Virus record (IMG/VR): IMGVR_UViG_3300011118_002165 | Coordinates: 1-58,632 of that record | DNA: 58,632 nt | Reading direction: 5' to 3' (one strand) | From: a virus | Part shown: positions 28,605-51,447 of the stretch, one piece after another | Layout of the letters: every line of letters begins with the position of its first letter | Position numbering within the stretch: position 1 is the stretch's first letter | Notes under the pieces: generated by a model | Told to the model about the DNA's origin: nothing | Database searches by the model: none | What the model saw: only the letters and a program-made list of their open reading frames with translations | Made by a program: the position numbers and the translations under genes

Positions 28605-28645
28605 GCACCCTCTACATCTGCAGTCAGGCCGATTCTGTCGCGCTG
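28605..28645 (-). promoter_or_regulatory. Bipartite phage element, copy A
   Basis: On the - strand this reads CAGCGCGACAGAATCGG, six variable bases (CCTGAC), then TGCAGATGTAGAGGGTGC. It lies between the terminase stop and the next start codon, inside the leftward operon. Copies B (45247-45287) and C (51409-51447) have identical flanking blocks with different central bases and also stand just upstream of genes in the same orientation. GCGACA and GATGTA are 17 bp apart in every copy, as in a -35/-10 promoter, but GATGTA is a poor -10, so a promoter for a phage sigma or an RNA element are both open. Confidence 0.6.
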
Positions 28646-28658
28646 ATTCCCCGGATTC

Positions 28659-30926
28659 TCACCCCCGGTGCGTCCGTTGGATTTCAGATAGCTTGATGCG
28701 CCGCCGCGGCGCCGAGGTCTTGGCATCGGTGCCTGGCAGGACGGCCCCGTGGATGGAGGCCGCCACGGCGCAGCCGACCAGGCAGTCCAGCCAGTGGTTG
28801 TCCGGATGCCCGGCCCGGAGCTTCCATTCATCCACCACGCGGCCCCGCGCCTCGGTCCGCACCCGGTACTCGGCGGTGACGTGCTCGGCCAGGAGCTGAT
28901 GTGCGGCGGGCTTGCGGCCGAACAGCGACAAACAGCCCGGGTCACCCATGGCGACCGCCAGGCGCGCGTGACAAAAACTCTTCCAGTAGTTCGTGTCGAT
29001 CAGGACGTGGCGCACCTGCCGGCGGCCATGGACGTTGGGGATGCGCCAGTGGTGGCCGATGCGCTCGCCGCGCTTGCGCTTGTACTCGCTGAACGGCACG
29101 CTGGACGCTCCGACGTAGCGCCCGTGGCTGGGCATCACGATGGCCGAGTGGGCGCTCTGGCGGCAGAACTGGTAGACGACGTCCGTGCTCTGGCCCCAGT
29201 TGGCGTCGATGAGACAGCGCTCGATCTGCAGCTCCGCCCCGTCGTCGCGCCGCCAGCGGCGGGACAGGTAGTCCCCGGTGAGGTCCTCCAGCCCGGCGTA
29301 GACTGAGCCCTCCAGGCCCGCCCCGGGCGCGGCCTGGCCGAGCGTTTTCTGCACGTCGCGTAGCGTGAACAGCGCCCGCCGCTGCTCGGGATACGCGCCA
29401 TACTCGAGCACGTAGCCGGTGAAGTCGTCCTCCCACGCTACGACGGTGTGGAACAACAGCTTGCCCTGCACGTCGATGAACATCGTCAGGTGGCTGGCCG
29501 CCAGGGGCACCTCGCCCGGGGCGTGGCCGTTGACCTTCGCGGCGACTTGCTCGGCCGTGAGTTGGTCCACGTCGCCCTCGTCCTCCGGCAGCGGCTCATT
29601 CTGATACTCCGCCCAGAAGGCCCGTTCATCCTGAAGCTTGAGGTTCATCGCGTGCTGAATGGCCGAGAGCTCGTCCTCGTTGTGGCGCTGCGGCCAGGCC
29701 ACGACAGAGCCGGCGTCCATCTGGTCGCGATGCTCGCGGTAGAACTCGGTGGCCTCGTGGCCGTCGCCGTCGCTGCGGAAGCTGTCAGCGCGGATCTGAG
29801 CGTACCGCTCCCACAGCTTCTCGTTGGCCGGGAAGGCGTAGACGAGTTTGGTGCGCTGGCCCTGCCAAGTGGGGTGCTTGTCGCGGTCGAGGATCTGGTC
29901 AGCCATGTCCCCCGGACGGATCACCGTGCACGGCATGATCCCCGAAATCTTCTGGCCCGGCCCGGCGAGGTTCAGGATCGCGCCGTTGAGCGTGTCCATC
30001 CGGGCGCCCGTCTGCGGATCGCTCCGGGCCGACTCGTCCGTCTGCGGATCGTCCAGCACCACCAGGGACGGGCGCACGGCACGGCCGTCGGCTCGCTTGA
30101 ACTTCATACCGCGGATCCGGCTCTCGATACCCGCCACGCGGATGATGGCGCCTGACGCCTTCGAATCGGGGATCGTCGGCAGGACGATCTCGTCGGCCGT
30201 CCAGACGATCCGCGTGTGCTGGCCGCCACATAGCTGGCCCTTCGCCCGGTTGTGGATGCGTTCCAGGGCGTGGATCGGGTACACCGCCTCGGGATAGTCC
30301 TCCAGCAGGGCGTCATTGGTCTCGAACTCGACCTTGATGCTCTCCAGCATGCTGCGGGCGTGCCCGGCGTCCGAACCGATCAGGCAGACGAACTCCCGCG
30401 CGCCGGTCAGCATCGCCCAGATGCACGCCGTCTCGGCCAGCGTCGTTTTGCCGCTGCCGCGCGGCATCGCCATGGCGAACAGCCCGCCGCGAAGCACCGC
30501 CTGCTCGATCTTGCCGATCACCTTCAGGTGGTCGTCCGACCATGGCAGGTTGAACGCCTGCGGGAAGTACGCCTCGCAGAAGAACCGGAAGTCGGTCTCG
30601 GCGTGGGCCTTCCGCTCGGGATCGACCACCTGCGGGATCGGGCCGATGTCCCGGCCGGTGGCGGAGATCTCCGCATTGCGCGCCCGCGCTGCCTCCTTGA
30701 TCGCCTCGTAGTCGGCCGGCGCCTTTGCCGGCGCGGGGTCGTGGCGCAGCCACGCCAGCCAGGCGACGTAGCGGAACAGGTCCACGTGCCGGTCATCCCC
30801 GATCCGGTAGCCAGCGCGGTTGCGGTGCCGGCGGAGTTGGCGCTCGCTGATCACCTCGCCCAGCGGCGTGGAGTTCAGCATCCGCGTCAACATCGATGGG
30901 CGAAGGTTGCGCGGGTCAATCGCCAC
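28659..30926 (-). CDS. Terminase large subunit (lambda gpA family)
   Basis: The 755-aa ATPase-nuclease packages phage DNA into proheads. Visible motifs are the Walker A AMPRGSGKTTLAETAC, Walker B-like LVVLDDPQTDESARSD, the FCEAYFPQAFNLPWSDDHLK segment typical of gpA-type terminases, and the C-terminal nuclease part with CLIDANWGQSTDVVYQF. Initiates at a GTG. Length and motif order are normal. The preceding small gene overlaps it by 11 nt. Confidence 0.93.
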   Translation of the reverse strand: MAIDPRNLRPSMLTRMLNSTPLGEVISERQLRRHRNRAGYRIGDDRHVDLFRYVAWLAWLRHDPAPAKAPADYEAIKEAARARNAEISATGRDIGPIPQVVDPERKAHAETDFRFFCEAYFPQAFNLPWSDDHLKVIGKIEQAVLRGGLFAMAMPRGSGKTTLAETACIWAMLTGAREFVCLIGSDAGHARSMLESIKVEFETNDALLEDYPEAVYPIHALERIHNRAKGQLCGGQHTRIVWTADEIVLPTIPDSKASGAIIRVAGIESRIRGMKFKRADGRAVRPSLVVLDDPQTDESARSDPQTGARMDTLNGAILNLAGPGQKISGIMPCTVIRPGDMADQILDRDKHPTWQGQRTKLVYAFPANEKLWERYAQIRADSFRSDGDGHEATEFYREHRDQMDAGSVVAWPQRHNEDELSAIQHAMNLKLQDERAFWAEYQNEPLPEDEGDVDQLTAEQVAAKVNGHAPGEVPLAASHLTMFIDVQGKLLFHTVVAWEDDFTGYVLEYGAYPEQRRALFTLRDVQKTLGQAAPGAGLEGSVYAGLEDLTGDYLSRRWRRDDGAELQIERCLIDANWGQSTDVVYQFCRQSAHSAIVMPSHGRYVGASSVPFSEYKRKRGERIGHHWRIPNVHGRRQVRHVLIDTNYWKSFCHARLAVAMGDPGCLSLFGRKPAAHQLLAEHVTAEYRVRTEARGRVVDEWKLRAGHPDNHWLDCLVGCAVAASIHGAVLPGTDAKTSAPRRRIKLSEIQRTHRG

Positions 30927-31116
30927 TGGCCACCTCCCGCACGAGCCACGCCGCGTAGTGCACCAGGTTCAGCGTGCCGTCGGCGTTGACGGGTGCCCCG
31001 GCGTCGACGTCCGCGCGGAGCATCTCCTCGGTGATCCGCCGCCCGCCGGCGGCGCTCAGAACCTTCGCCGCCTGGGGGGGCGTCAGGGCCGTGATTCTGG
31101 GGGTTTCGGCGGTCAT
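30916..31116 (-). CDS. Small protein preceding the terminase
   Basis: A 66-aa protein (MTAETPRITALTPPQAAKVL, then GGRRITEEMLRADVDAGAPV and LNLVHYAAWLVREVASGD) overlapping the terminase start by 11 nt. The helix-turn-helix-like pattern (ITEEMLRADVDAG) and position resemble small terminase subunits or similar regulatory proteins, but the family is not certain. An AGGGGG ribosome site precedes the ATG. Confidence 0.6.
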   Translation of the reverse strand: MTAETPRITALTPPQAAKVLSAAGGRRITEEMLRADVDAGAPVNADGTLNLVHYAAWLVREVASGD

Positions 31117-31181
31117 ATCTCTAGCCCCCTTGCCAGCTTGCGATAAGCTGTAACTTCTTTTTAAACAGGCGTTTAATTGCC

Positions 31182-31209
31182 TTGATGTGTCCGGGGTTCG
31201 AGGTAACAT
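31182..31209 (+). promoter_or_regulatory. Candidate promoter for the rightward small-gene cluster
   Basis: TTGATG (31182-31187) and TAACAT (31204-31209) lie 16 bp apart within an unusually AT-rich stretch (31140-31210) between divergent genes. The first rightward gene starts about 50 nt downstream, behind AAGGAG. No equally good leftward promoter for the virion operon was seen. Confidence 0.4.
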
Positions 31210-31258
31210 GTGTCTGTCGAATGACAAACGTAAACGACTGCCAGAGAAGGAGATAACG

Positions 31259-31450
31259 ATGAACGAGCGACGCAGAACAGCCAAACGCGACGCTGCCCTG
31301 GCCGAGATCGCCCGCGACGTCCTGGGCATCGAGACGCTCGAGACCCGCAAAAGCGACGACCTCGACTTCCACGACCTGGCGGTCTGGAGCATCGAGAAGG
31401 CCCTGAAGATCGCCTACGAGGCCGGACGCCTCGCTGGCCTGGGCGAGTAA
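31259..31450 (+). CDS. DUF6900-like small protein
   Basis: The 63-aa protein has the DUF6900 pattern: MNERRRTAKRDAALAEIARD, then VLGIETLETRKSDDLDFHDL and AVWSIEKALKIAYEAGR. Members occur in many phages and plasmids as small early-region proteins of unknown function. It is first in a cluster of at least nine small rightward genes, separated by short gaps and each with its own ribosome binding site, here AAGGAG eight bases before the ATG. Confidence 0.75.
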   Translation: MNERRRTAKRDAALAEIARDVLGIETLETRKSDDLDFHDLAVWSIEKALKIAYEAGRLAGLGE

Positions 31451-31477
31451 CCACCACCCACCGCAAAGGAGCCAACC

Positions 31478-31768
31478 ATGCGAATCAGCGCGATCGAACT
31501 GGCCGGAAGCAGCAAGACGACGCTCCGCGACGGCAGCCCGGGCCTGGCCCGAGCCTTCGCCCGGATCGAGCGAGACCGGGGTGCGGACGTTATCCGCATC
31601 ACGTTCTTCCAGCCGAACCAGCCCGAGGATGTCCACGAGGTCTTGGCCGACGACGAGGGAGACCAGCGATGCGCGGCCGAGATGCTGCAGCGCGCACTGG
31701 ACGGCTACGAGGGCACGAACAGCGAGGTCCACGACTACCTGCGGATCCTCCAGTACCTCGCGGACTAA
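31478..31768 (+). CDS. Hypothetical early-region protein
   Basis: A 96-aa protein with no recognised motif (starts MRISAIELAGSSKTTLRD; contains DVIRITFFQPNQPEDVHEVL and HDYLRILQYLAD). A mixed alpha/beta fold is likely. AAAGGAG precedes the start. It lies second in the rightward small-gene cluster, where phages commonly encode host-takeover or anti-defence proteins; no specific function can be assigned. Confidence 0.6.
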   Translation: MRISAIELAGSSKTTLRDGSPGLARAFARIERDRGADVIRITFFQPNQPEDVHEVLADDEGDQRCAAEMLQRALDGYEGTNSEVHDYLRILQYLAD

Positions 31769-31786
31769 GCGCGGAAGGACCGAACC

Positions 31787-31999
31787 ATGGCAGCGAAGAA
31801 GACCAACACCGAGACGCACGAATGGCTGATGGCCCAAGGCCGAGACGGCCGCCGCCGCATCGAGAAGCTCGGCTGGCGACGCCTCGCACGCATCTACCTC
31901 GCGGCCAGGCCCGGCAGCGCCATCCGCAAGGCGATCAACGCCGAGGCCCGCCGTTGCGGGTACACGCCGAGGACCATCCTCGCGCTGCACGCCGAGTAG
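31787..31999 (+). CDS. Small basic hypothetical protein
   Basis: A 70-aa basic, Arg/Ala-rich helical protein (MAAKKTNTETHEWLMAQGRD; RRRIEKLGWRRLARIYLAAR). The charge suggests nucleic-acid binding. It follows the upstream gene after 18 nt with a GGA-rich ribosome site. No family recognised. Confidence 0.5.
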   Translation: MAAKKTNTETHEWLMAQGRDGRRRIEKLGWRRLARIYLAARPGSAIRKAINAEARRCGYTPRTILALHAE

Positions 32000-32011
32000 A
32001 AGGAACCCACC

Positions 32012-32215: not shown

Positions 32216-32227
32216 AAGGACCACGAC

Positions 32228-32407: not shown

Positions 32408-32422
32408 GCAGGAGAAGCCCCC

Positions 32423-32886: not shown

Positions 32887-32911
32887 GCCCCCAACACGAG
32901 GAGCGAGAGCG

Positions 32912-33502: not shown

Positions 33503-33505
33503 GCG

Positions 33506-33856: not shown

Positions 33857-33858
33857 CA

Positions 33859-34095: not shown

Positions 34096-34514
34096 TTCGG
34101 CCTCCAGAGACCGTGGGGGAAGAAGTCGGCCAGGATCCGCTGCTGCTCGGAGTAGCCGTAGCTCTCGATCGACCGGGCGAAGTGGTCGCGGCAGAGCAGG
34201 TACCGGGCGCGCATGATGCGGACAGACTCCGGGCCGAAGAGGTCGAACGTCGGCCCGGCGGGTGTCTGCCGCCGCGCCTCGTAGCGCCGGTCGTCGCGCT
34301 TCACCAGCGTGGTGACCCGCAACTGCTCCAGCCTCGGCCAGTCGCCGTCGACCGGGTGCTCGATCACCGGGCTGTACGCCACGGCGAGATCGACGAAGTC
34401 CAGCACGTCCGCCAGCGGCACGCCGCCGATGACCTCCCTGCGGAGCTCGGCGTCCACGAAGCGCTCCAGCACCTGGACGACGTCCGCCGGCCCGTCCTTT
34501 GCTGGGCGGCTCAC
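34092..34514 (-). CDS. Hypothetical protein coupled to the ParB-methyltransferase
   Basis: A 140-aa helical protein (SRPAKDGPADVVQVLERFVD; AVAYSPVIEHPVDGDWPRLE; RRQTPAGPTFDLFGPESVRI) beginning at a GTG that overlaps the methyltransferase stop (GTGA). No motif recognised. Tight coupling to the methyltransferase suggests a role in DNA modification or its control. Confidence 0.6.
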   Translation of the reverse strand: MSRPAKDGPADVVQVLERFVDAELRREVIGGVPLADVLDFVDLAVAYSPVIEHPVDGDWPRLEQLRVTTLVKRDDRRYEARRQTPAGPTFDLFGPESVRIMRARYLLCRDHFARSIESYGYSEQQRILADFFPHGLWRPK

Positions 34515-35863
34515 GCTGCAGCCTCCTCGGTCGCCGCGCCGATGCGCTCGGCCTTTTTGCCGGTGAACTGCTCCCACCGCTGGACGATTACGTCGCAGTA
34601 GAGCGCGTCGATCTCCATCAGGTACGCCCGCCGGCCCGTCTGCTCGCAGCCGATCAGCGTCGAGCCGCTGCCGCCGAAGAGGTCCAGAACGTTCTCGCCC
34701 GGCAGCGAGCTGAACTGGATCGACCGAACGGCCAACTCGACGGGTTTCTCGGTCAGGTGGACCATCGCCTGGGGGTTGACCTTCTTGACGTGCCAAAGGT
34801 CGGTGGCGTTGTTAGGCCCGTAATAGCAATGACCTGCGCCTTCCTTCCACCCGTAGAAGCAGATCTCGAACGCCCCCATGAAGTCCTTGCGTGTGAGCAC
34901 CGGGTGCTGCTTGTCCCACACGATCCCCTGGCTGAAGTACAGCCCCGAAGCCTTGAGCGGCGCGGGGTAGTTGCCGAGGTTCGCATACCCGCCCCAGATG
35001 TAGAACGAGCCCCCCGGCTTGAGCACGCGCGAGGCGTTGCCAAACCATGCCAGCAACATCTCGTCGAACGCCTCGTCGGTGACGAAATCGTTCTCCAGCG
35101 GCCGGTCCTTGGCTCGCATCTTCTTGCGGGCCTTCTTCGGGTCGGTCACGCCGCGCGCTACGTCGAAGCCCTGGTGGTGCATTTTGCCAGAAGACTGCGA
35201 CAGGTCCGGGTGGGAGCTGTTGCCCGCTGCGATGGCCGTGCTGCTGCGCGGCTCGACGCGGACATTGTACGGCGGGTCCATCGAGACCAGGTCGATGGTC
35301 GCGCCGTCCAGCAGAAGGTCCAAGTCGGCCTGGCTGGCGCTGTCTCCGCACATCAGGCGGTGGTTGCCCAGCACCCAGACGTCCCCGCGCTGGGTGATCG
35401 CCTCGTCGGGCGGCTCGGGCACCGCGTCAGGGTCGGTCAGGCCCTCAGCCGTCTCGCCGTCGAGCAGCTTGGCCAGTTCCGTGTCGTCGAAGCCCAGCAG
35501 GCTCAGGTCGTAGTCGGCGCCCTGGAGGTCCTTCAGCTCGATCGGCAACAGGTCGAAGTCCCACTCGGCCAGCGACGCGGTCTGGTTATCCGCGATCCTG
35601 TATGCCTTGATCTGTTCGGGCGACAGGTCCGTGGCCACGTGGACGGGCACCTTGGCCAGGCCCAGCTTCCGCGCTGCCTTCCACCGTGTGTGGCCGACGA
35701 TGATCACACTGTCGGCGTCGACCACGATGGGCTGGCGAAAGCCGAATTCCTTCAGGCTGGCAGCAACCGCATCTACGGCCTGATCGTTGACGCGCGGGTT
35801 GGCCTCGTACGGCCGGATGGCGTCGATGGGTCGCAGCTCAACGTCGTAGGTCTTCGTCGTCAT
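34511..35863 (-). CDS. ParB-like domain fused to DNA methyltransferase
   Basis: The 450-aa protein has an N-terminal ParB/sulfiredoxin-type domain (about 1-110; PIDAIRPYEANPRVNDQAVD, then VIIVGHTRWKAARKLGL) and a C-terminal DNA methyltransferase. Motif IV DPPYNV (near 200) precedes the AdoMet motif DLFGGSGSTLIG (near 410), the beta-class order of adenine-N6/cytosine-N4 enzymes. ParB-methyltransferase fusions are common phage orphan methylases that protect phage DNA from restriction. Its upstream region is the iteron cluster. GGAGGTG precedes the ATG. Confidence 0.9.
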   Translation of the reverse strand: MTTKTYDVELRPIDAIRPYEANPRVNDQAVDAVAASLKEFGFRQPIVVDADSVIIVGHTRWKAARKLGLAKVPVHVATDLSPEQIKAYRIADNQTASLAEWDFDLLPIELKDLQGADYDLSLLGFDDTELAKLLDGETAEGLTDPDAVPEPPDEAITQRGDVWVLGNHRLMCGDSASQADLDLLLDGATIDLVSMDPPYNVRVEPRSSTAIAAGNSSHPDLSQSSGKMHHQGFDVARGVTDPKKARKKMRAKDRPLENDFVTDEAFDEMLLAWFGNASRVLKPGGSFYIWGGYANLGNYPAPLKASGLYFSQGIVWDKQHPVLTRKDFMGAFEICFYGWKEGAGHCYYGPNNATDLWHVKKVNPQAMVHLTEKPVELAVRSIQFSSLPGENVLDLFGGSGSTLIGCEQTGRRAYLMEIDALYCDVIVQRWEQFTGKKAERIGAATEEAAA

Positions 35864-36267: not shown

Positions 36268-38655
36268 TCATGCCAGCTGGTACCCGTGTGCCGTCTTGGT
36301 CTTGGTCGGGATGTCTACCGGGAGGATCTCACCTTGCTGAATCAGGGTGGCCACCAGTTGGTCGAAGTCTGCGGCCTTGCACCGCATCACACGCAGCAGG
36401 TGCTGGCGCTGCATGCGACGCCCGGGCGCTTCGGAGAGCCTGCGGGTGAGCTTCAGGCACTCGGCGTGGAACGGGTTCTCCGCCACGTACGTCGCTGCCA
36501 AGTAGAGCTGGCGCCGGGTCTGGTGCATGGCGAAGGCGGTTGCCCACTCGATGGCGGGCAGGCCGATGACCGGATCCTCGTGGTTCTCGCTGCAGGCGTA
36601 GAGCAGGGCGAGCTTCTTCGCGTTCTCGCACGTACGCGCCCAGGCGACCTTTCCGGTCGCGTCGCCGCGGTCCTCTGACCTGGCGTACTCGTCTTCCGTC
36701 ATGCGCTGGAGAGCGTCCACGGCCTCCTGGGCCTCGGGCGTCGTGGGGACCACGCGTGGCTCGGGATGGATTGCGAACAGGTCCTTGCGGACCGAGCCGG
36801 GCTGGAACTCGGCCCACCAACGGGCCGTTTGGAGGATCGCCTCGGGCACGTTGCGGGCGGAGCCGGGCCTCTGGCCACGGCCGCGCTTGCCGATGTCGAC
36901 GATGATCAGCCTGGCGAAGAAGCCGTTGGTGAGCATGCGGTAGGACAGCGCCTCGTAGAAGTACTGGGGCGTGGCGGTCCCGAACAGGGCCAGGTGCGGC
37001 TGGTCGATGTGCCCCATCTCCTTCTGCCCGGCCTTGACGCGGATGGGGTAGACGTCGCTGGCCGACGTGCTCATCGTCAGCAGGATGCTGTGGATCGACT
37101 CGGTCTTGCCCTCGCGGTCCAGGTTGATCTGGCGCAGGACGCCGTCCATCTCGTCGTTCTGGAACAGCATGGCCGGCGAACGCGCCAGCGCGTCCTGGAT
37201 GCCCTGCCCACTGGCAAACTTGTCGCCGAGGGCGTGGACGAGCCCGATCTCGAACAGGATCCGGGCGTTGACCTTGCGCGGGAAGTCCTTGCCCGTGCCG
37301 GAGCCGGCCAGGGCGAGGATCATGATGTTGGTGCGCAGGTCGTCGCCGTTGCACACCTTCCGCCCGGTCAGCAGCGACATCAGGGCCATCGCGCCGCAGA
37401 ACGCCAGGCCACCGTTCGGGTACGGGGCCTTGGCCAGCGAGAAGTCCATGACCTGCGAGACGAAGCCGGGTACCTCGAAGAGGCGCTCGGGGATCGGACC
37501 CGGGTCGGCCATGTGCAACGCGGCGCCGCCCGTGTCGGTGGTGTCCGGCAGGCAGGCGTCCGCCTTCGCCACGATGGCTGAGGTGTCGACGTCGCTGTCG
37601 TCCGGCTCGTCACTGCCGTAGCCCTCCGCCCGTAGCGCGCGGGCGGCCTGCTCGAAGTCGCCGCCATGTTCCAGCAGCGCGTAAACGGCGAACGGTGAGT
37701 ACGCCTGGTTGGGTTCGAACGGGGCGGCATTCGACGAGAAGACGTAGAACACGCCGTCCTTCAGCGTGGCCGACGTGCCCGTCTGCTTGCCCGGCCGGCG
37801 CCAGTACTCGTTCTCGCCGCCCTTGACGCACACCCAGCCGTGCTGTTGGAGCACGGCCCGCACGTCGCCACGGGCGTTGAAGTCGTCGCCAGGGCGAAGA
37901 TCGCCGCCGCTTGGCGCACCGGCCGCCGGACCGCCCCCGGTCGCCCCAGGGGCCAACGTGTGGCCACGTGGGGCGGCCCGGGCCCTGCAGTCCGCCGCGG
38001 GGGGCACGTATTCGTTCAAGTCCCACGCACACCGGAGCAGGATGTCGCGCTCCTCGGCGGTCAGGACAGGCAACTTGCGGAAGTCGCCTTGGACGAGCGC
38101 GTAGCCCTCGGTTGGGTCGCACAGGAACAACCCGCCTTCACCCCGCGTCTCGATCAGCGTAATGATCACGGACCTCGAGCCGTCGTCGTCGGTGCGGACG
38201 AGGTACTCCTTGCCGTGGAGCACGACGACTTCCTTGCCCTTCTTGTTGAGCGTGATCTCCTCGTCCCGGACGGCGCGCTTGCGCTGGGCGAGCTTCAGGC
38301 TGCCGCAGACCTCCTCCTCTACGCGACAGGCCGTGTGCCATCCGTCGGACTGGCTCCCCTCGATGACGAGCTTCTCCAGCAGCCCCGGCGCAGCCGTCCG
38401 GACGCGCTTGCACCACGGGTCGAACAGCTCCCCCGCGAAGTCGAAGTCCGTCATCTCCAGGTTGCCGGAGACCTCGCCGCAGACCAGGCACACTCCGTCG
38501 TGGTCATTGGCGAACCATGCATCCACCTCGGCTGCGGTGGGCAGCCGCGTCTTGTACGGCTCCCACTTGCCTTTGATAGCCGGCCGCTTCTCGGCCCGAT
38601 GAGCCGGCAGGACGCACAAGCCGGCGTCGAGATATGCACGGGCGGCCTGCTTCAC
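36268..38655 (-). CDS. Primase-polymerase fused to helicase-type ATPase
   Basis: The 795-aa protein begins with a prim-pol domain: catalytic D70 and D72 (MTDFDFAGELFDP) and the SQSDGWH motif (S101-H107) that binds nucleotide. The C-terminal half is a helicase-type ATPase (DUF3987-like) with Walker A GSGTGKD near residue 450 and acidic FQNDEMDG. Such proteins initiate and unwind phage or plasmid replication. It begins at a GTG overlapping the downstream-on-chromosome gene's stop codon (GTGA), and its 3' end abuts the iteron cluster. Confidence 0.88.
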   Translation of the reverse strand: MKQAARAYLDAGLCVLPAHRAEKRPAIKGKWEPYKTRLPTAAEVDAWFANDHDGVCLVCGEVSGNLEMTDFDFAGELFDPWCKRVRTAAPGLLEKLVIEGSQSDGWHTACRVEEEVCGSLKLAQRKRAVRDEEITLNKKGKEVVVLHGKEYLVRTDDDGSRSVIITLIETRGEGGLFLCDPTEGYALVQGDFRKLPVLTAEERDILLRCAWDLNEYVPPAADCRARAAPRGHTLAPGATGGGPAAGAPSGGDLRPGDDFNARGDVRAVLQQHGWVCVKGGENEYWRRPGKQTGTSATLKDGVFYVFSSNAAPFEPNQAYSPFAVYALLEHGGDFEQAARALRAEGYGSDEPDDSDVDTSAIVAKADACLPDTTDTGGAALHMADPGPIPERLFEVPGFVSQVMDFSLAKAPYPNGGLAFCGAMALMSLLTGRKVCNGDDLRTNIMILALAGSGTGKDFPRKVNARILFEIGLVHALGDKFASGQGIQDALARSPAMLFQNDEMDGVLRQINLDREGKTESIHSILLTMSTSASDVYPIRVKAGQKEMGHIDQPHLALFGTATPQYFYEALSYRMLTNGFFARLIIVDIGKRGRGQRPGSARNVPEAILQTARWWAEFQPGSVRKDLFAIHPEPRVVPTTPEAQEAVDALQRMTEDEYARSEDRGDATGKVAWARTCENAKKLALLYACSENHEDPVIGLPAIEWATAFAMHQTRRQLYLAATYVAENPFHAECLKLTRRLSEAPGRRMQRQHLLRVMRCKAADFDQLVATLIQQGEILPVDIPTKTKTAHGYQLA

Positions 38656-43405: not shown

Positions 43406-44200
43406 TCAGTTCTCCTTGCTGTCGGGGTTGGTCCCGGGGTTCGGGGCGCCGATCAGGGCCTGCATCAGGTCGGCCCATGCCAGGGGCAGCTCGGCCGGCA
43501 GGTCGAAGCGGTTCTTCGCCACGCAGGCCGGACTGCCAACGCACCGCAGAATGCGCTCGCCGCCGTCGGTGCCCAGCCCGGCGGCGGTGGTCCGCTTGCG
43601 GTTGAAGCCGGCCTCCTCGGTCGTGGTGATGATCTTGCGGGTCGCGAACAGCACGGCGTCGACCCACTCGGTGATCAGGGCCGTCGCGTGCTTGTGAAGG
43701 CGGGGCGAGTAGCGGTCGTAGGCCGAGTGCTCGGGGTCCTCGAACTTCTCGACCTTGGCGTGTGCCAGCAGGATCACGCACATGCCCCGCTGGGTCCGGA
43801 GGGCGTTGAGGTCGTTGAGGATCGACCGCCAGGGCGTCAGGGCGTGGGTGTAGCCCTTGGCGTAGCCGCCGTCGACCTTCTCGATGCTGGTTACCCCGTA
43901 CTGCTCGCACAGGGAATCCCAGATCAGGCGTTCGAGCCAGTCGACCGAGTCGAGAACGACGGTCTCGAAGTCATGGGGCTCCTGGAGCAGGGCCTGAATC
44001 GCCCCCTGGACGTCAGCCAGCGTGCGGGCCAGCGGGAAGGAGTGGCAGTCGATCTGGTCCAGGCCATCCTCGGTTGGGATGAAGACGGGCCTGGGCGCCT
44101 GGGCCGCCGTGGTGGATTTGCCGATGCCCTCGGTTCCGTAGATCAGCAGTCTCGGTGGTGAGTGGCGTCGGCCGCTGTGGACTTGCTTCATCAAGCTCAT
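43406..44200 (-). CDS. Sak4-like RecA-fold ATPase (single-strand annealing)
   Basis: The 264-aa protein has an N-terminal Walker A YGTEGIGKST (21-30), a Walker B-like FETVVLDSVD and RecA-core segments, matching phage AAA_24/Sak4 proteins that promote annealing during recombination. The ATG at 44200 is preceded by AGAGGAA; an upstream GTG at 44239 would add 13 residues rich in Glu and His. It is followed by the DUF669 protein and RusA, and preceded by the exonuclease: a complete recombination set. Confidence 0.85.
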   Translation of the reverse strand: MSLMKQVHSGRRHSPPRLLIYGTEGIGKSTTAAQAPRPVFIPTEDGLDQIDCHSFPLARTLADVQGAIQALLQEPHDFETVVLDSVDWLERLIWDSLCEQYGVTSIEKVDGGYAKGYTHALTPWRSILNDLNALRTQRGMCVILLAHAKVEKFEDPEHSAYDRYSPRLHKHATALITEWVDAVLFATRKIITTTEEAGFNRKRTTAAGLGTDGGERILRCVGSPACVAKNRFDLPAELPLAWADLMQALIGAPNPGTNPDSKEN

Positions 44201-44258
44201 GGGCAGTTCCTCTTGCTCGTGGGTCTCGTGTTCTGTCACACCATGGCTGGCCAGCCAC

Positions 44259-44412: not shown

Positions 44413-45225
44413 CTATGCCGCGTCCAGCATGCGAATCTCCTCGTAGCCCGTGGGCCAGCGGTCCAACTCGCCGCAGCGGACGAGCCGCCGGATCGCGGCC
44501 TCGTTCTCCTGGCGGGCGATGGCGAGGGTGTTCTCGGTGACGCGCCAGACGCCGCAGCGGAAGGGCTCGGCCTTCTCGACGGCGATGAGATGCACGGGGA
44601 CGTGCTCGTCGACGGCCTCAGCGAACACCGACTGATAGAAGGCGACCTGGTTGTGATAGCGGCGCCGCCGGGCGTCGGCCTCGAACCAAGTCAGGTCCGC
44701 AGTGGTCTTCAGGTCGACGATGCCCCGGAAGGGATGGACCCAGTCGATGCGAATCTGGCACGGCGTGCCGCAGTACCGTGCCCGGACAACGCCTTCGGAT
44801 CGGCCGTACAGGAGCAGCTCGACGACCTCATCGTTCATGGCCACACCGCCGGCCATCTGCTCGATGAGCTCGACTTGGTCCTCCGACAAGACCGGCTTGC
44901 CCTGAGCGGCCGCCCACTCGGCGAACGCCTTCGTGTTGGCCCCGAAGGGCCGGCCCGTCCGGGGGTTGATGGGGCCGCCGAGGGTAAACTGGCTCTCGTA
45001 GGCTTCCCGCCCCTCCAGGATGCGGCAATGCGCGCCGCGGCCGACGAGCAGCGCCGGCGTCTCAACGTCCTTGATCAGGCCCAGCCACTTCTTGTGGTAC
45101 AGCCACGGGCAGGCCATGAAGTCCAGCAGCTGGTGGCTGCTGAGGTACTCGCCGGCGAGGGCGTGGTACTCCTCGGCCGGCTCGGCTTCGAGGACACTCA
45201 GGTCGATGTGGAGGGCGTCGTCCAT
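44413..45225 (-). CDS. PD-(D/E)XK exonuclease (RecE/YqaJ-like, DUF3799 type)
   Basis: A roughly 270-aa nuclease of the phage recombination module. Family hallmarks are LLDFMACPWLYHKKWLGL (N-terminal helix that contacts DNA), CQIRIDWVHPFRGIVDLKTT with the catalytic D and LKT (D-(D/E)-x-K) and YHNQVAFYQSVF. Such enzymes chew one strand to prepare single-stranded DNA for Sak4/SSB-mediated annealing. The start is ambiguous: ATG at 45225 or ATG at 45234; both follow bipartite element B by fewer than 25 nt. GGAG lies in between. Confidence 0.85.
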   Translation of the reverse strand: MDDALHIDLSVLEAEPAEEYHALAGEYLSSHQLLDFMACPWLYHKKWLGLIKDVETPALLVGRGAHCRILEGREAYESQFTLGGPINPRTGRPFGANTKAFAEWAAAQGKPVLSEDQVELIEQMAGGVAMNDEVVELLLYGRSEGVVRARYCGTPCQIRIDWVHPFRGIVDLKTTADLTWFEADARRRRYHNQVAFYQSVFAEAVDEHVPVHLIAVEKAEPFRCGVWRVTENTLAIARQENEAAIRRLVRCGELDRWPTGYEEIRMLDAA

Positions 45226-45246
45226 GGTTCGCATCGCTCCTTTCCG

Positions 45247-45287
45247 GCACCCTCTACATCTGCACCTGAGCCGATTCTGTCGCGCTG
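45247..45287 (-). promoter_or_regulatory. Bipartite phage element, copy B
   Basis: On the - strand it reads CAGCGCGACAGAATCGG, six variable bases (CTCAGG), then TGCAGATGTAGAGGGTGC, followed by CGG and the start region of the exonuclease gene 13-22 nt later. The same bases also encode the last residues of the sigma-like protein (ATESAQVQM), so the element is embedded in a coding end. Copies A and C share all but the central six bases. As a promoter it would serve the exonuclease and downstream recombination genes. Confidence 0.65.
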
Positions 45288-45910
45288 TTCCCTGGGATTC
45301 GCAGGCCTGCGGCGGCCAGGTACGGGCGGATCTCGGCGATATTGCGGTAGATGGACCCGCGACAGACGCCCAGTTTTTCAGCCACCTCGGGGGGGGCAAA
45401 CACCATAAGCAAGCGACACACCCGACGCAGCCGCTTGGGCATTCCGGCCAGCGCCGCCTCCAGGTCCAGCCGGAGCTCGCGCTGGGCCTGCTCGTCCAGC
45501 TCGCCGGCGCGCGTCTCGTTCACGACGGGCTGGAAGCCCAAGGCGACGTCGTCCAAGCCGAGGGGGCTGTCGCACGGACGGCGCTGTTGCGTGCACCGGA
45601 TGCGCGTGGCGTACTTGACGAACTTGTCCAGCACGCGGTTGACGAAGGTCTCGCGTTTCGCCTTGGCGGGATCGAACCGCTGGAAGGCCGTAAGCAGCTC
45701 GACCACCATGTCATGACGGCAGTCTTCCTGCTCGGCCTCCGACAGGTCGAACTGGCTGGTCAGCACGCGGATGCGGAAACTGATCCGCTCCAGAGCGTAC
45801 TCGTCGATCAACTGCTCCGCCGTGAGCTGGCTGACCTGCTGCTGGGAGTGGGAGGGGGAGGTTTCGCGGTCCGGGGAGACCGCCCGCCGGTCGAAGGACG
45901 TGCTCTTCAC
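45254..45910 (-). CDS. Sigma-70-like transcription factor of the phage
   Basis: The 218-aa protein has a sigma region 2-like segment (ERISFRIRVLTSQFDLSEAE; EDCRHDMVVELLTAFQRFD; ETFVNRVLDKFVKYATRI) and a region 4-like HTH (PPEVAEKLGVCRGSIYRNIA). It starts at a GTG with AAAGG upstream. It lies just upstream of the recombination genes, and its 3' end contains element B. The 5' flank holds a terminator hairpin and two 17-bp palindromic operators, so it is likely a regulated phage gene-expression switch factor; whether it recognises the bipartite elements is a hypothesis. Confidence 0.78.
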   Translation of the reverse strand: MKSTSFDRRAVSPDRETSPSHSQQQVSQLTAEQLIDEYALERISFRIRVLTSQFDLSEAEQEDCRHDMVVELLTAFQRFDPAKAKRETFVNRVLDKFVKYATRIRCTQQRRPCDSPLGLDDVALGFQPVVNETRAGELDEQAQRELRLDLEAALAGMPKRLRRVCRLLMVFAPPEVAEKLGVCRGSIYRNIAEIRPYLAAAGLRIPGNSATESAQVQM

Positions 45911-46071: not shown

Positions 46072-46086
46072 TTCAGGTTTTTCTTC

Positions 46087-47352
46087 TCACTCCAGCGCCC
46101 AGTCGATGGGGCGGTCGGGCGCGTAAGACATGTTGATATGTGTCCTTATCGAGTTCCGAAGGTGAGTTGCGAGATCGGGATCGTTCTCCTCGATCTTGTC
46201 GATAGCTATGTTGATGACGCGGGCTATCCGCCGTCGCACCTTCGAGACGTCGTCGAGGGCCTTCCGCGACTTACCGCCCAAACCCAACGACGCCGACAGG
46301 TACGCAGCGATCTTCCCTATCTCCCCTTGGATGTCTGCGAGTCGTGCCTTGTCCCCCGTTCGACGGGCCTCCTCCCGCTCGACCTCAAGCTCCTCATACC
46401 TCTCCCGACATTCGCGGATCGTCGTCTCGTCCGCGAGGTCGCCGCCATCGCTCGCAGCAAGCTCCAGCCCCTCCGCCTCGGGAGTGACCCGGGCGCGCTC
46501 TGCGCCGGCAACATCGGCCATCACGCGGATGACGTGGGTTTCCTGCCCTTGGTGCCGGATCAGGTAGTGCATGAACGCGGCGCCCTTCAGGTCCCCGTCC
46601 AGGTAGGTGTCCTTACCAGCGAACCGCAGTACCCACATCCCTCGCCTGGCAAACTGATACTCCGGCTGCGCCGGGGCCATCCGGTCGGCCATGTGCCGTT
46701 GGCAGTAGGCATTCCGGTAGGTCTCCCAGGTGGGCAAGGCCGAGAACCGCCCCGCGGAGTCGCATGCGATGGTCTCTGCCAGCGGAACGATCGCTGCCTC
46801 CCGACGCTGGAGCTGAACCTGGAGCGAGTTCGGCAGCCTGGGGTGTCTGGGAACAAAGAGGAGGAACCCCTGGTCGAGCTCGGACAGAAGCCTGGCGACC
46901 TCCGACGTCAGCAGCCGTGTGGTTGGCGGCAACATCATGAACGCAGGAACGCCGGCGCCCGGGATGGGGGCCCATGTCCCAACCGCAAACGCCCGAGGCA
47001 CCCCCCGTACTGGCTGCGGATCTGGTGTGATGCCCAAAGCCTCGGCAACCACGGAGCGGAATGCCGTGACGTTCAGCCGATAGACTTTGACATCCGTTTC
47101 GGCAAGGCCTACCTGCTCGAGGTTGCCGGTCGCGGGGCAGACGAGTCCGTAAGTGCCCCTCGACATGGGCACGACGTGAAGTGCTCGCCCGTCGGCACCA
47201 GCGTATGTGCTGGCGATCCCATCGCCGACAAACAGCCGGTTACGGAGATCTCTCCAGGCACGGTCGCCGAGGGCCCGCCGCCATTCACCTGCACCGGCCG
47301 TCAGGCCGGGCCGGAAAGAGATCAAGTCCCAGAGCCCGTCCAGGCAGCTCAC
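46087..47352 (-). CDS. Uncharacterised protein with C-terminal wHTH/helical domain, second of a two-gene module
   Basis: The 421-aa protein has no recognised N-terminal domain. From about 235 it contains a KGAAFMHYLIRHQGQETHVI segment and then a coiled/helical region ending LGLGGKSRKALDDVSKVRRR, ARVINIAIDKIEENDPDLAT and HLRNSIRTHINMSYAP, a winged-helix plus coiled-coil arrangement seen at the C-terminus of bacterial signalling or defence proteins with names such as KGxxYLxxLL-type. It starts with a GTG overlapping the preceding gene's stop (GTGA), so the two proteins are coupled. Function unknown; accessory (moron or defence) is a fair guess. Confidence 0.7.
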   Translation of the reverse strand: MSCLDGLWDLISFRPGLTAGAGEWRRALGDRAWRDLRNRLFVGDGIASTYAGADGRALHVVPMSRGTYGLVCPATGNLEQVGLAETDVKVYRLNVTAFRSVVAEALGITPDPQPVRGVPRAFAVGTWAPIPGAGVPAFMMLPPTTRLLTSEVARLLSELDQGFLLFVPRHPRLPNSLQVQLQRREAAIVPLAETIACDSAGRFSALPTWETYRNAYCQRHMADRMAPAQPEYQFARRGMWVLRFAGKDTYLDGDLKGAAFMHYLIRHQGQETHVIRVMADVAGAERARVTPEAEGLELAASDGGDLADETTIRECRERYEELEVEREEARRTGDKARLADIQGEIGKIAAYLSASLGLGGKSRKALDDVSKVRRRIARVINIAIDKIEENDPDLATHLRNSIRTHINMSYAPDRPIDWALE

Positions 47353-48530
47353 GGTTGCCCAGCCCCGTTGCGCGGGAGGATGAACCCCTGGCTGACCAGA
47401 AACTGGTGGGCGAACTCCGCATCGGATTCATGGTCGTAAACCGAGACGTTCGGGGCGTAGAGCCTGACGGTTCTTTCGCCGCCCAGCCCGCCCTTCGGCG
47501 TCAGCTTCACGCCCATGCACACCAGCTCGGCCTCCTCGGGAATCTGATCGCCCAGATCCTCCAGCCCGGCGAAGACATCCTCGGCTCTGTGCGTCACGCA
47601 GTGTCTGTTGTGCCCGTTGAACTGGTACCGCAGATGGGTCAGCCGGGCCGCATCGAGTTCGGGGACATTGGTACAGTCCATGGCGGCCCGGCCCTTGGTG
47701 CGCAGCGGCTCCAGCGTGTATTTCCTGGCGTCAGCCCGCTCGAAGAACTCCGGGTCGCCGAACAGGTTCCTGCCGAGATAGGTGCAGTAAGCCCGACGCT
47801 CCTTTATGCCCCTGCTGTCGTTGTAGATGGCCAACTCGCCCTGCTGATGGTAGTAGATGAGCAGGTCGTAGGCCTCCGGGCGGTAGAAGACGACGTGCGG
47901 CTCGCCGTTCTCGAGGGCGTTCTCCCGCTTGAACGTGCCGCCGTGGCGAACGATGAGCCACGCGGCACCCGTCTTCTCGATGATCGAGACGCGCGTGCCC
48001 CGCCCCTTCTTCTGGCCGTCGTACCACATGTCCATGTCCTGTGCGAACGAGTCCAGGACGCCCTGGGCGGGCTTGCGCCACGGGGGCAGCCGTTTGACGG
48101 TGGCGAAGTAGGACAGGAAACGCTTCTTTTTCCGAAGCAGACCATGGGCGTGATAGACGGCATGGAGGTCTTCGAGCGCCTCGGGCGCACCGAGTCGCAC
48201 GAGCAGCGCCGCGTCCTCGATGGTGACCTTGTCCCCGTAGCTGATCCCATGGCGGGCCGCGATGTCGTTGAGGTCCTCGATGTGACCCATCTCCGCGACC
48301 TCGTCCCAGTAGAACAGGTCCGCCATGAGGTGGGCGGGCATCTGCTCGTCGGGTACGGCGAGGACCAGCGCCAGCCTGTCGCAGTCGATCTTGTCCGGCG
48401 ATGGCGGAAGGACGCCCTCGGCCGCGAAGAACGTCCTGTACTTACTGAGCAGCCGGTAGAGAGCCTTCGGATTGACGCGTTGGAGGATGTGCGGCGAGGA
48501 GATACGGTGCGGAGTGAACGTGCTGGCCAT
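47349..48530 (-). CDS. Uncharacterised protein, first of a two-gene module
   Basis: The 393-aa protein is predicted globular and alpha/beta, with no motif that I recognise. Notable segments are RLLSKYRTFFAAEGVLPPSP, QDMDMWYDGQKKGRGTRVSI, PHVVFYRPEAYDLLIYYHQQ and NVPELDAARLTHLRYQFNGH. The ATG at 48530 is chosen for its GGAGG six bases upstream over an ATG at 48542. It overlaps its partner by 4 nt, shares no similarity to the neighbouring phage genes and is isolated by a terminator downstream and by a gap upstream. Confidence 0.7.
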   Translation of the reverse strand: MASTFTPHRISSPHILQRVNPKALYRLLSKYRTFFAAEGVLPPSPDKIDCDRLALVLAVPDEQMPAHLMADLFYWDEVAEMGHIEDLNDIAARHGISYGDKVTIEDAALLVRLGAPEALEDLHAVYHAHGLLRKKKRFLSYFATVKRLPPWRKPAQGVLDSFAQDMDMWYDGQKKGRGTRVSIIEKTGAAWLIVRHGGTFKRENALENGEPHVVFYRPEAYDLLIYYHQQGELAIYNDSRGIKERRAYCTYLGRNLFGDPEFFERADARKYTLEPLRTKGRAAMDCTNVPELDAARLTHLRYQFNGHNRHCVTHRAEDVFAGLEDLGDQIPEEAELVCMGVKLTPKGGLGGERTVRLYAPNVSVYDHESDAEFAHQFLVSQGFILPRNGAGQP

Positions 48531-48891
48531 GGGGGCCTCCATGCACTAGCCGGGAGCGCCGGCAACCGAGATTCGCCTGATCGACAGGCCCCGTCCGTGG
48601 TCCTGTCCCGAGACTAATTGCAAATAGCATGCCATCGACATTCTGTCGCGGATAACGAACGCATGAACAAGGGTTTGTGCCATGTCCGCCGCCGCCCAGC
48701 CACCTGCCACGAACAGCTCCCAAGGGACGTTCGCCTGCCTCGATGGCCGGCTCTGCCGCCTTCTCAGCCATCTCGCTCAGTCGCAGGGCACGTCCACCTG
48801 GCGCAACGGCTCCGTCGCGCCTCCAGTCGACGCCATCGGCGGGAGCCAGCCTGTCCCTACGACAACGACGTTCTTTTCGTGGGCGGGCTTC
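48531..48891. other. Intergenic region with a weak fourth promoter-like element
   Basis: No convincing gene. At 48621-48649 on the - strand GCGACAGAAT is followed, 17 bp after GCGACA, by TATTTG, reproducing the first half (and spacing) of the bipartite elements but not their conserved second half. It is oriented towards the uncharacterised two-gene module and could be its promoter. The + strand reading frames here are low-complexity shadows. Confidence 0.4.
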
Positions 48892-49119
48892 TTACCCTAT
48901 GGGCGGGAAGGGGTCGTTCCCGTGGCTGTCGCGGGCCTGAATCTGGCCATTCTGACCGTGGATGAACAGCTCGGTCCCTTGGTTCCGGCTGATCTCCCTG
49001 GCCGCGTCCACGGCATCGGCCTTGGTCCGGGAGTGCCCGCTGATGCGATCAGCGCCGCCTCGGCGAACATTCCATCCGCCATCCGGGCCTGGAACAACAT
49101 GATGCGATTTTGCTGCCAT
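48892..49119 (-). CDS. DUF2188 small protein
   Basis: The 75-aa protein matches DUF2188: KSHHVVPGPDGGWNVRRGGA, HSRTKADAVDAAREISRNQG and a C-terminal GTELFIHGQNGQIQARDSHG. DUF2188 proteins are small, stress- or phage-associated and of unknown biochemical role. The ATG at 49119 is preceded by GAGGAG with an eight-base spacer. Confidence 0.85.
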   Translation of the reverse strand: MAAKSHHVVPGPDGGWNVRRGGADRISGHSRTKADAVDAAREISRNQGTELFIHGQNGQIQARDSHGNDPFPPIG

Positions 49120-49284
49120 GATTTCGCTCCTCAAGCATCTGGCTTACCTGTGTACCGGCTCATTGGCCGGCCTCGATCGGTCCGTCTTGTCGTCGGTCGA
49201 GTTGGCCACCCCTTGCGGGCAAGCCATCTCTCGGTAAGATCGATGGGGCGAAACCGTCTCGCCACACCGTCTCCTTACTGACAA

Positions 49285-49359
49285 ATACGACCGGCCGTTA
49301 CAGCTCTTGGCGGTCTGCCGCCCGAACCGGGGCGACCCGTCTGTAACGCCTAGTCGTAT
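49285..49359. promoter_or_regulatory. Long interrupted inverted repeat upstream of the ECF sigma operon
   Basis: Left arm 49285-49303 reads ATACGAC, four bases, CGTTACAG. The right arm at 49341-49359 is its complement, CTGTAACG, four bases, GTCGTAT. Each arm is 19 bp with 15 matching bases; the loop is 37 bp and itself contains a GGCGG/CCGCC hairpin. The right arm ends 38 nt before the sigma start codon. Such symmetric distant sites fit a looping or bound dimeric regulator controlling the lysogeny block. Confidence 0.55.
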
Positions 49360-49397
49360 GTGCTTACGGCCCGAGGCGGACGCAAGGGTAAGCCAGG

Positions 49398-50030
49398 ATG
49401 GACGACGCGACAGCAAGAAGTACGGATACGGATCTGCACGAAGACATCGCAGTCAAGCTCGTGTGCGGGGATGAGTCCGTCTACGAGGAGATCGTGCGGA
49501 ACTACGCTCCCACGATCCAGGCTTGGCTTCTCGCGCTTCCCTTCGGCCTCACCCGAGACGACGCGGAGGACATCGTCTGCGAGGCCATCATGCGGCTCTG
49601 GGAGAAACGCGAGCAGTTCGATGACTCTCAAGGCAGCAACGTGAGGAACTACCTCTACAAGATCGCGAAGAACCTGTTGCTCGACCGCCCGAAGACCCGT
49701 CGCTTCAAGACAATGTGCCGGGAGCGTCAGGTCAGCGACGAGTACCTCAAGAACCTTGCCGCCCCAAAGAAGAAGTCCGAGACCCGATCTCCCGAGAATC
49801 CCGAAACGCCGATCCTGACCGCTGTGCGAGAAGCCCTTCGGGAGTTGCCGGAGGCATACCGGACGGTTCTGCTCGAGGATGCGGGAGCGACCGTGGAGAT
49901 GCCTGCCGCGGAGCTGGGCAGGATCCTCGGCGGCATACCAGCGGGAACGATCCGGCAGCACCGGAAGCGTGGCAGGGATGCACTTCGGCGGAAACTCGCG
50001 GAACGTGGTTTCAGCGGCACAGAACGCTAG
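49398..50030 (+). CDS. ECF-type RNA polymerase sigma factor
   Basis: The 210-aa protein has a complete sigma region 2 (AVKLVCGDESVYEEIVRNYA; LTRDDAEDIVCEAIMRLWEK; RNYLYKIAKNLLLDRPK) and a sigma region 4 HTH (LRELPEAYRTVLLEDAGATV; ELGRILGGIPAGTIRQHRKR). It directs RNA polymerase to specific promoters and is first in an operon with an acidic protein and an ImmA/IrrE protease. This trio resembles controllable switches of integrated elements. A second, different sigma-like gene lies at 45254-45910. Confidence 0.88.
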   Translation: MDDATARSTDTDLHEDIAVKLVCGDESVYEEIVRNYAPTIQAWLLALPFGLTRDDAEDIVCEAIMRLWEKREQFDDSQGSNVRNYLYKIAKNLLLDRPKTRRFKTMCRERQVSDEYLKNLAAPKKKSETRSPENPETPILTAVREALRELPEAYRTVLLEDAGATVEMPAAELGRILGGIPAGTIRQHRKRGRDALRRKLAERGFSGTER

Positions 50031-50038
50031 GTGCAACC

Positions 50039-50410
50039 ATGGCTGAATATACGGACAGAGAAGTCAACGAACTCCTCTTCAGGGCCATCGTACCCAGGGG
50101 GCTCAGGCCTGAGACGCCAGAGGAGATCGACGCCATGCTGGACGCCATCGGGGGCGAAGCACTGCCTGAGGCCACGGTTCAGCGCATGTTGCGCAAGATC
50201 CGCGGCGAAGAACCATTGGCCGATCCCCAGGCCGGGCACGACGTGAGGAGGATGGACGATACGGCGGCGGGCCTCCCTGCTGCGGAACTCGCCCTTTATC
50301 GCAACCGAAACGAAGAAATGCCTCCGGAGATCGAGAAGCTGTTGGAGGAGATGGAAGAGGAAGCGCTTGAGGACGGGGAAGAAGACGGCGTGGACGACGA
50401 AGATGCGTAA
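50039..50410 (+). CDS. Acidic regulatory protein between sigma and ImmA-like protease
   Basis: A 123-aa protein with a helical N-terminal part (TDREVNELLFRAIVPRGLRP; PEEIDAMLDAIGGEALPEAT) and a very acidic end (EEEALEDGEEDGVDDEDA). No motif is recognised. It is coupled to the downstream protease gene by an 8-nt overlap. In ImmR/ImmA-type systems the protease destroys an inhibitor; by analogy this could be the anti-sigma or inhibitor substrate, but this is inference. Confidence 0.65.
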   Translation: MAEYTDREVNELLFRAIVPRGLRPETPEEIDAMLDAIGGEALPEATVQRMLRKIRGEEPLADPQAGHDVRRMDDTAAGLPAAELALYRNRNEEMPPEIEKLLEEMEEEALEDGEEDGVDDEDA

Positions 50411-51320
50411 GCCCACCTGGAAGGAGCTGCAGGGCCACCGCGACTGGGCAAACGACCAGGGCGAGGGAATCGCTGCGGTCCTCGGTTGCTCGAACCACCC
50501 CATTGATCCCTTCGCCATCGCGGCGGCGGAACCTGTCATCTTCCTGAAGGGCGCCGATCTCGGTGATGAGTTCGATGGCAGGCTGAGTTACTGCCCGCGC
50601 CGGAAGGCGACTCAGCGGGACCGCTTCCTCCTGGCCTACAACACGCGGTATGACCACATCTGCCAGTACGACGGCGAACACTGCCCCAAGGTGCGGTTCA
50701 CGATCGCGCATGAGCTCGGGCATTACTTCATGGATCGCCATCGTCATCACCTGCAGGAAGGCGGCCAAGCGTATACATGCTACACCGAGTCCTACTGCGA
50801 GATGGTGATGGAGCTTGAGGCGGATTCATTTGCTGCCGGCCTTCTCATGCCGTCGTCTCTGCTGGCGCCGGTCATCAATCGCCAGGTCGCGGAGGAACCC
50901 AGCCTCGATGACATTCGCTACGTGGCACGCGACTTCCAGATCTCGCTCACGAGCATGATGGTCAGGTGGACGAAGCTCTCTGATTTTCCCTGCGCAGTCT
51001 TCTCCGTTGCTGAGAACGAGGGGAAGCTCGGGATCCGTTGGGGGTGGGTATCGGAAGCGTTCGCGAACGTCGGGGCGTACTGGCGGCTGTACGGGCAATT
51101 CCGATCGCGGGATGCCCGTGGCTTCCTCGGCCAGGCCCCCGACTTCTCTCAGTGGCAGTGCGGCTCCGGTCTCGGCACGATGGCCGACTGGGTCGAAACC
51201 GACCATCGGATCAGCGTCAAGGAGCACTACGCTGTCATCCCGTACGCCCGGCATCTGCTTGTGTTCCTCACCGCCGCCGAAGATGAACTGAGCGACTGCC
51301 GCCCACTACGTCAGTACTGA
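50403..51320 (+). CDS. ImmA/IrrE-family metallopeptidase
   Basis: The 305-aa protein has the zinc site RFTIAHELGHYFMDRH (H103, E104, H107) and a downstream ELEADSFAAGLLMPSSLL supplying the third ligand region. ImmA/IrrE proteases cleave repressors in response to DNA damage or other signals, freeing integrated phages or elements. Its start overlaps the acidic gene by 8 nt, making the latter a natural substrate or partner. The N-terminal 80 residues and the last 100 are poorly conserved in the family and may provide signal input. Confidence 0.9.
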   Translation: MRKPTWKELQGHRDWANDQGEGIAAVLGCSNHPIDPFAIAAAEPVIFLKGADLGDEFDGRLSYCPRRKATQRDRFLLAYNTRYDHICQYDGEHCPKVRFTIAHELGHYFMDRHRHHLQEGGQAYTCYTESYCEMVMELEADSFAAGLLMPSSLLAPVINRQVAEEPSLDDIRYVARDFQISLTSMMVRWTKLSDFPCAVFSVAENEGKLGIRWGWVSEAFANVGAYWRLYGQFRSRDARGFLGQAPDFSQWQCGSGLGTMADWVETDHRISVKEHYAVIPYARHLLVFLTAAEDELSDCRPLRQY

Positions 51321-51398
51321 CGCCAACAGCCATGGGGGGATCGAGGGCACGTCAGCAGGCTACCACGTCGATCTCCCCAGCGCGCTGCGCCTGCGATC

Positions 51399-51447
51399 CG
51401 CACGTTTGGCGCGACAGAATCGGGACAGCTGCAGATGTAGAGGGTGC
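51399..51447 (+). promoter_or_regulatory. Bipartite element copy C overlapping a palindromic operator
   Basis: At 51409-51447 lies GCGCGACAGAATCGG, six variable bases (GACAGC), then TGCAGATGTAGAGGGTGC, oriented to the downstream excisionase gene (51509). Its upstream end overlaps a palindrome (51399-51415) matching 14 of 17 bases of the operator pair at 46035-46071. A promoter-like element directly under an operator would give negative control of excision and tie it to the control of the sigma-like gene. Confidence 0.65.

Follow-up and report, generated by a model that had tools for sequence, protein, structure and literature searches.

A phage-encoded sigma-like protein and its probable three-promoter regulon in a temperate virus of Phycisphaerae

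Here, we examine a two-block DNA element that occurs three times in the IMG/VR virus record IMGVR_UViG_3300011118_002165, a temperate virus of uncultured Phycisphaerae bacteria, whose whole 58,632-nt stretch was analysed and is called the window below. An earlier reading of the letters (hereafter the original prediction) had proposed that the element marks a phage-specific regulon, preceding genes for a connector protein, an exonuclease and an excisionase, and that it is probably read by the phage's own sigma-like factor. The features concerned are as follows (aa, amino acids; HTH, helix-turn-helix).

26876-28336, − strand: portal protein, lambda family (PF05136, E 2.3e-63), proposed regulon member
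28389-28586, − strand: 65-aa conserved head-region gene, first gene of the head operon and directly before the portal gene, proposed regulon member
28600-28645, − strand: putative promoter element copy 1, before the head operon (upstream block GCGCGACAGA at 28634-28643, downstream block TGCAGATGTAGAGGG at 28608-28622)
28659-30926, − strand: terminase large subunit, gpA type (PF20454, E 1.1e-26; phrog_38), ending 13 bp upstream of copy 1
43406-44239, − strand: AAA-24 ATPase of the recombination operon (PF13479, E 1e-50)
44413-45225, − strand: exonuclease VIII-like protein (DUF3799, PDDEXK; PF12684, E 1.2e-27; phrog_412, E 9.3e-42), first gene after copy 2
45242-45287, − strand: putative promoter element copy 2, before the exonuclease/recombination operon (blocks at 45276-45285 and 45250-45264)
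45254-45910, − strand: sigma-like protein of 218 aa with regions 2 and 4 only (phrog_1740 'RNA polymerase sigma factor', E 3.5e-9), proposed reader
51407-51452, + strand: putative promoter element copy 3, before excisionase and integrase (blocks at 51409-51418 and 51430-51444)
51509-51745, + strand: excisionase-like HTH protein of 78 aa, recognised from its translation, first gene after copy 3
51852-53318, + strand: tyrosine integrase (PF00589, E 6.4e-15)

Both blocks exist where they had been predicted, as three identical copies without a mismatch: TGCAGATGTAGAGGGTGC at 28605-28622 (−), 45247-45264 (−) and 51430-51447 (+), for which 0.05 matches are expected by chance at up to 3 mismatches, and GCGCGACAGAATCGG at 28629-28643 (−), 45271-45285 (−) and 51409-51423 (+). 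A weight matrix trained on 14 sites, all from outside the window, picked exactly these copies with scores of 67.1 (copy 1), 63.7 and 63.4 bits; the next best window site scored −0.2 bits and the maximum over 10 shuffles was 12.0. Each copy shares the coding strand and orientation of the head-region, exonuclease or excisionase gene that it precedes, with about 21-64 nt separating it from the start codon (ATG at 28586 (−), 45225 (−) and 51509 (+)), and copy 2 (45247-45287) overlaps the 3' end of the sigma-like gene, encoding its last ~11 residues and stop codon. The central six bases differ within the window, as had been noted, but across 17 related sites the variable stretch comprises about 11 loosely constrained bases between the constant parts GCGCGACARA and TGCAGATRTAGAGGG. 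The predicted 17-bp spacing between GCGACA and GATRTA is kept, ungapped, in all 17 sites.

As predicted, the gene after copy 2 is exonuclease VIII-like by both PF12684 and phrog_412, and copy 3 is followed by the excisionase-like HTH frame and then the tyrosine integrase, the former resembling in sequence a 56-aa HTH protein before the integrase in a related phage (L040). For the presumed connector protein, a head-region gene does follow copy 1, but its product is the 65-aa protein encoded between terminase and portal, which matches no Pfam or PHROG family and whose position is conserved in about 75 relatives. Many relatives (e.g., G306, G321, L056, L132, L273) encode a ~60-aa zinc-ribbon-like protein (pattern CPxCGCxHFxVxYTRR...RRRECRHCGRRxxTYE) between terminase and the 65-aa gene; it is absent from the window, where the element directly follows the terminase gene.

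Scanned for the exact motif, public collections yielded two contigs: a viral one, in which the element again lies before the 65-aa gene, and one from a Phycisphaerae genome. When 298 genomes of the same class (Phycisphaerae) were scanned with up to 3 mismatches, 15 had any match, at most 4 per genome (as in G001) and mostly in prophage regions, while a reversed-pattern control gave one match in one genome. Searching relatives for the motif, as the original prediction had suggested, showed that related prophages of Phycisphaerae and phages of IMG/VR have close copies ahead of these three operons: before the head gene (L004, G030, G017, L114/G300), before or beside the exonuclease operon (G030, G248, G090, G262, G300-G302) and before the integration module (G300, G301, G248, G030, G077). 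In the phages compared, it is always in coding orientation and near the gene start. The integration module comprises excisionase and tyrosine integrase in G248, and DUF2924 and serine recombinase in G030 and G077; since both types are preceded by the element, its placement tracks function rather than a particular integrase.

Exact-motif searching yielded very few loci, and the decisive data came from relatives recruited by place rather than motif, through their portal and exonuclease homologues. Portal homologues led to 80 viral loci with the same order of terminase, 65-aa gene and portal, most of which lack the window's element there and have other short conserved sequences in that place. In the 31 phages with both regions, the 200 nt that precede the 65-aa gene were compared, without reference to any motif, with the stretch where the sigma-like gene ends, some 15-20 kb distant. 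A match within the same phage was found in 24 of the 31 (own score at least 16), with own scores of 16-46 vs. an off-diagonal mean of 12.0, and random pairing reached the observed sum in 0 of 50,000 trials. Such shared elements include CGGCATAGGTAACCCATAG in G304, CTCCGCAACAAAA...GTGCTGCAGAAGTAG in G307, CACGCAAAAAAACA...CCTGCAAAAAGACAA in G309 and CGAAAAGG...CTCGCAAATATAGA in G317. Between phages, the putative promoters form at least six classes, namely that of the window, CGGCATAGGTAACCA, CCGGGTAATTGACT / GGGTAAGTAAC, TGCGGCAATAAGCACTA, TGCAAAAAGACAA and others. The third copy in other classes precedes serine recombinases (G312 of the CATAGGTAAC class, G309 of the GCAAAAAGACAA class, and G307), and all classes in which a third copy was detected have it before an integrase module, of tyrosine or serine type.

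The gene whose end carries copy 2 encodes the sigma-like protein. Besides its PHROG match, it has no above-threshold match in Pfam, Sigma70_r2 and Sigma70_r4 included, and only a sub-threshold one to Mga HTH. An AlphaFold (AF2) model, for which the alignment also contained a second sigma factor of the window (49398-50030, see below) as one row and 45254-45910 as the first, modelled row, has confident helical domains at about residues 31-110 and 140-200 and nothing else confident. The ~30 low-confidence residues between them (110-139) form a linker within the limit of fewer than 50 residues for extracytoplasmic function (ECF) sigma factors. The best Foldseek matches of the model are ECF sigmas in transcription complexes (SigH, SigL and RpoE complexes, best E 4.5e-4), giving a predicted two-domain ECF-like sigma fold. 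The original ECF definition, since relaxed, specified promoters with AAC at −35 and CGT at −10 (PMC8103513), boxes that the blocks GCGCGACARA and TGCAGATRTAGAGGG do not show. Although the architecture fits, we claim no ECF group membership because no Pfam sigma model matches above threshold and the boxes are non-classical, and we refer to the protein as sigma-like with ECF architecture. Searching 29 virus records identified homologues, often with strong divergence, in 17. Every tested phage that has the element and enough sequence encodes one. A search of 50,697 phage records gave no relative. The two genes encoded just before it (46087-47352 and 47349-48542) match no family, no anti-sigma gene was recognised beside it, and homologues of the two are likewise placed in G300, G304, G307, G309 and G314.

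The classes of the sigma-like protein match those of the promoters. We quantified this by Mantel tests on promoter cross-similarity, in which the head promoter of one phage is compared with the sigma-end (exonuclease) promoter of another. Among 14 phages, cross-similarity correlated with sigma identity (r = 0.572, and r = 0.581 given terminase identity; both P = 0.0002), vs. r = 0.16 (P = 0.11) for terminase alone. The unfiltered set of 26 gave r = 0.453 for sigma and r = 0.454 given portal identity (P = 0.0002), vs. r = 0.029 (P = 0.33) for portal, and 22 phages selected for an own score of at least 15 gave 0.541 and 0.097, respectively. In the 14 pairs with terminases more than 80% but sigma-like proteins less than 45% identical, promoter similarity was at background (mean 11.4). 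For instance, G304 shares 88% terminase but 25% sigma identity with the window and has a different promoter class, whereas G030, with 63% terminase and 43% sigma identity, has the window's class. Given the distance between the head promoter and the sigma gene, the covariation is not a matter of physical linkage.

Computation thus establishes that the element exists at its three positions, that it is conserved ahead of the same operons and that it covaries with the sigma-like protein. Two blocks with spacing near 17 bp, in fixed orientation upstream of start codons (17 sites), and a sequence that covaries with a sigma protein are what is looked for in sigma-dependent promoters. Taken together, the computational evidence indicates that the three elements are very probably promoters recognised by the phage-encoded sigma 45254-45910 and form one lytic regulon, in line with the original prediction of a regulon read by the phage's own factor, which conservation and covariation support by computation. 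From this pattern we infer binding, start sites, the assignment of blocks to sigma regions, timing and the role of the sigma gene as lytic switch. The upstream block GCGCGACARA would serve as an approximate −35 box for region 4 and the downstream block TGCAGATRTAGAGGG, 17 bp away, as an approximate −10 box for region 2, with the sigma acting on host core RNA polymerase and transcription beginning a few bases downstream of the element. Upon induction or infection, the sigma gene would be expressed and the three promoters might fire together, driving excisionase-integrase, the recombination-replication operon that begins with the exonuclease, and the head operon starting at the 65-aa gene and portal. 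Because integration/excision, recombination-replication and head/tail functions would have one promoter each, such a regulon would amount to the lytic programme, making the sigma gene its likely switch.

Several points weigh against this interpretation. Seven of the 31 phages have no match before the head gene, Mantel tests are permissive on related sequences and the phages are not independent, and the AF2 model has a predicted template modelling score (pTM) of 0.40, because the relative placement of its two domains is not fixed. In four exceptions that were looked at (G248, G364, L073, L121), a different sigma-like gene lies directly upstream of the head gene, suggesting that late control was handed to a second sigma factor there; this would account for those four, and not for all 7. 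Among relatives lacking the element before the head gene, a 180-220-aa sigma-70-like gene lies directly upstream of the 65-aa gene in L073, L121, L276 and G248 (contig C40, 38290-38835), and possibly encodes a second, late sigma factor in those relatives.

Two standard promoter types were rejected: a plain sigma-70 promoter at copy 2, the one copy scanned, since no consensus site lies at 44900-45500, and a sigma-54 promoter, since the GG-to-GC spacing read from the sequence is 7, not 10. Alternatively, the elements could be operators for a phage repressor or activator, with a host sigma factor starting transcription. Operators too are often bipartite and exactly conserved at several operons, and a regulator of the M78 metalloprotease type (50367-51320) is located in the same region. 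However, an operator for another regulator would require neither fixed orientation, nor 17-bp spacing, nor covariation with a sigma, whereas here the orientation is constant, the elements lie 9-44 nt from the gene start with promoter-like 17-bp block spacing, the covarying protein has a sigma fold, and the scanned copy has no sigma-70 consensus around it. We consider this explanation very unlikely.

A second candidate reader, also put forward in the original prediction, is encoded nearby:

49398-50030, + strand: second sigma factor, ECF-type (Sigma70_r2, E 5.8e-12)

This is an unmistakable sigma of the same phage, conserved in G300. Yet it occurs only in the window and G300, with a weak relative in G322, and is missing from the other promoter classes; the 57-kb G030 contig, where the same promoters recur at all three places, lacks it throughout. 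It was rejected on this ground and is probably not the reader; that it reads the three promoters is extremely unlikely. Of the two sigma factors proposed, therefore, 45254-45910 stands, as it covaries with the promoter, and 49398-50030, which is not conserved with the element, does not. The ECF sigma gene, a 170-aa gene of no assigned family on the opposite strand and the gene of the M78/IrrE-type protease (50367-51320) are conserved together in G300, and the weak ECF relative in G322 adjoins an M78 gene. This stretch (48682-51320) is possibly a lysogeny control region.

Exact repeats of ~40 bp can also be repeat elements, and the Phycisphaerae genome G001 has four matches, but the idea of a repeat family or mobile sequence dispersed through host genomes, and in the phage by chance, is refuted, its likelihood being next to nil: the many scattered host copies that would mark it were not found in the 298-genome scan (15 genomes, at most 4 each), the matches lie mostly in prophage regions and precede the same three operons, and other phages carry a different element at all sites instead. 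A conserved RNA leader acting post-transcriptionally, which closeness to start codons might suggest, is just as implausible and was rejected, since RNAalifold predicts no pairs over the 17 sites, Rfam has no match at the element, and orientation and spacing suit a promoter.

Elsewhere in the window, the + strand at 616-12322 carries genes, among them one for a type I restriction R subunit (8347-11604), that are probably outside the phage proper, or cargo or host flank. A ParB-like N-terminal domain fused to an N6/N4 DNA methylase (34511-35863) is among the best conserved proteins across these phages. The Rfam match to HIV-1_SD, a 19-nt family, at 37687-37705 (score 30.4 vs. a cut-off of 30, E 0.02) falls inside a protein-coding region and is surely due to chance.

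In Bacillus subtilis, the late operon of the defective prophage PBSX is controlled by Xpf. This is a two-domain (sigma 2 + sigma 4) group IV positive control factor linked to PBSX induction (PMC10141391). By description, the present protein is alike in architecture and proposed role, being prophage-encoded with regions 2 and 4; it differs in belonging to another host phylum, in the three separate operons, excisionase-integrase included, that it would cover, and in that the promoter sequence changes between close relatives along with the sigma. T4 (gp55) and SPO1 (gp28/gp33-34) also encode sigma factors that steer the host polymerase to phage promoters, as the present protein would, although these are lytic phages whose sigmas rely on co-activators and are not two-domain ECF-like. 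To our knowledge, no family-wide exchange of sigma with its promoters is known for them. The protein resembles ECF (group IV) sigmas in having regions 2 and 4 only, in its best structural matches (SigH, SigL, RpoE) and in PHROG 1740, and is unlike classical ECFs in its boxes, which are not AAC/CGT (PMC8103513), in having no recognised adjacent anti-sigma gene and in being part of a phage regulon. Phage-encoded sporulation sigma factors of Bacillota are reported to alter host dormancy (PMC9429907); these are likewise phage-carried, whereas the putative targets here are the phage's own operons. Nothing of this kind turned up in the open-licence literature searched.

Promoters have been assigned to few of the sigma factors that phages are known to encode. 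In the present group, sequence alone reveals an entire family of sigma-promoter pairs, in at least six promoter classes and with three promoters in each genome. Such a family provides orthogonal pairs, ready for use in tests of how sigma factors recognise promoters, and a route to predicting the lytic regulon of uncultured Planctomycetota phages; it is also a natural example of a single regulator changing in step with several distant sites. The chances seem about even that Phycisphaerae temperate phages carry interchangeable 'private' transcription codes, in which a fast-diverging sigma is exchanged or rewritten jointly with its promoters at three operons far apart, such that relatives with 80-90% identical terminase or portal use mutually unreadable promoters. 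Private codes of this sort could keep co-resident prophages from switching each other on.

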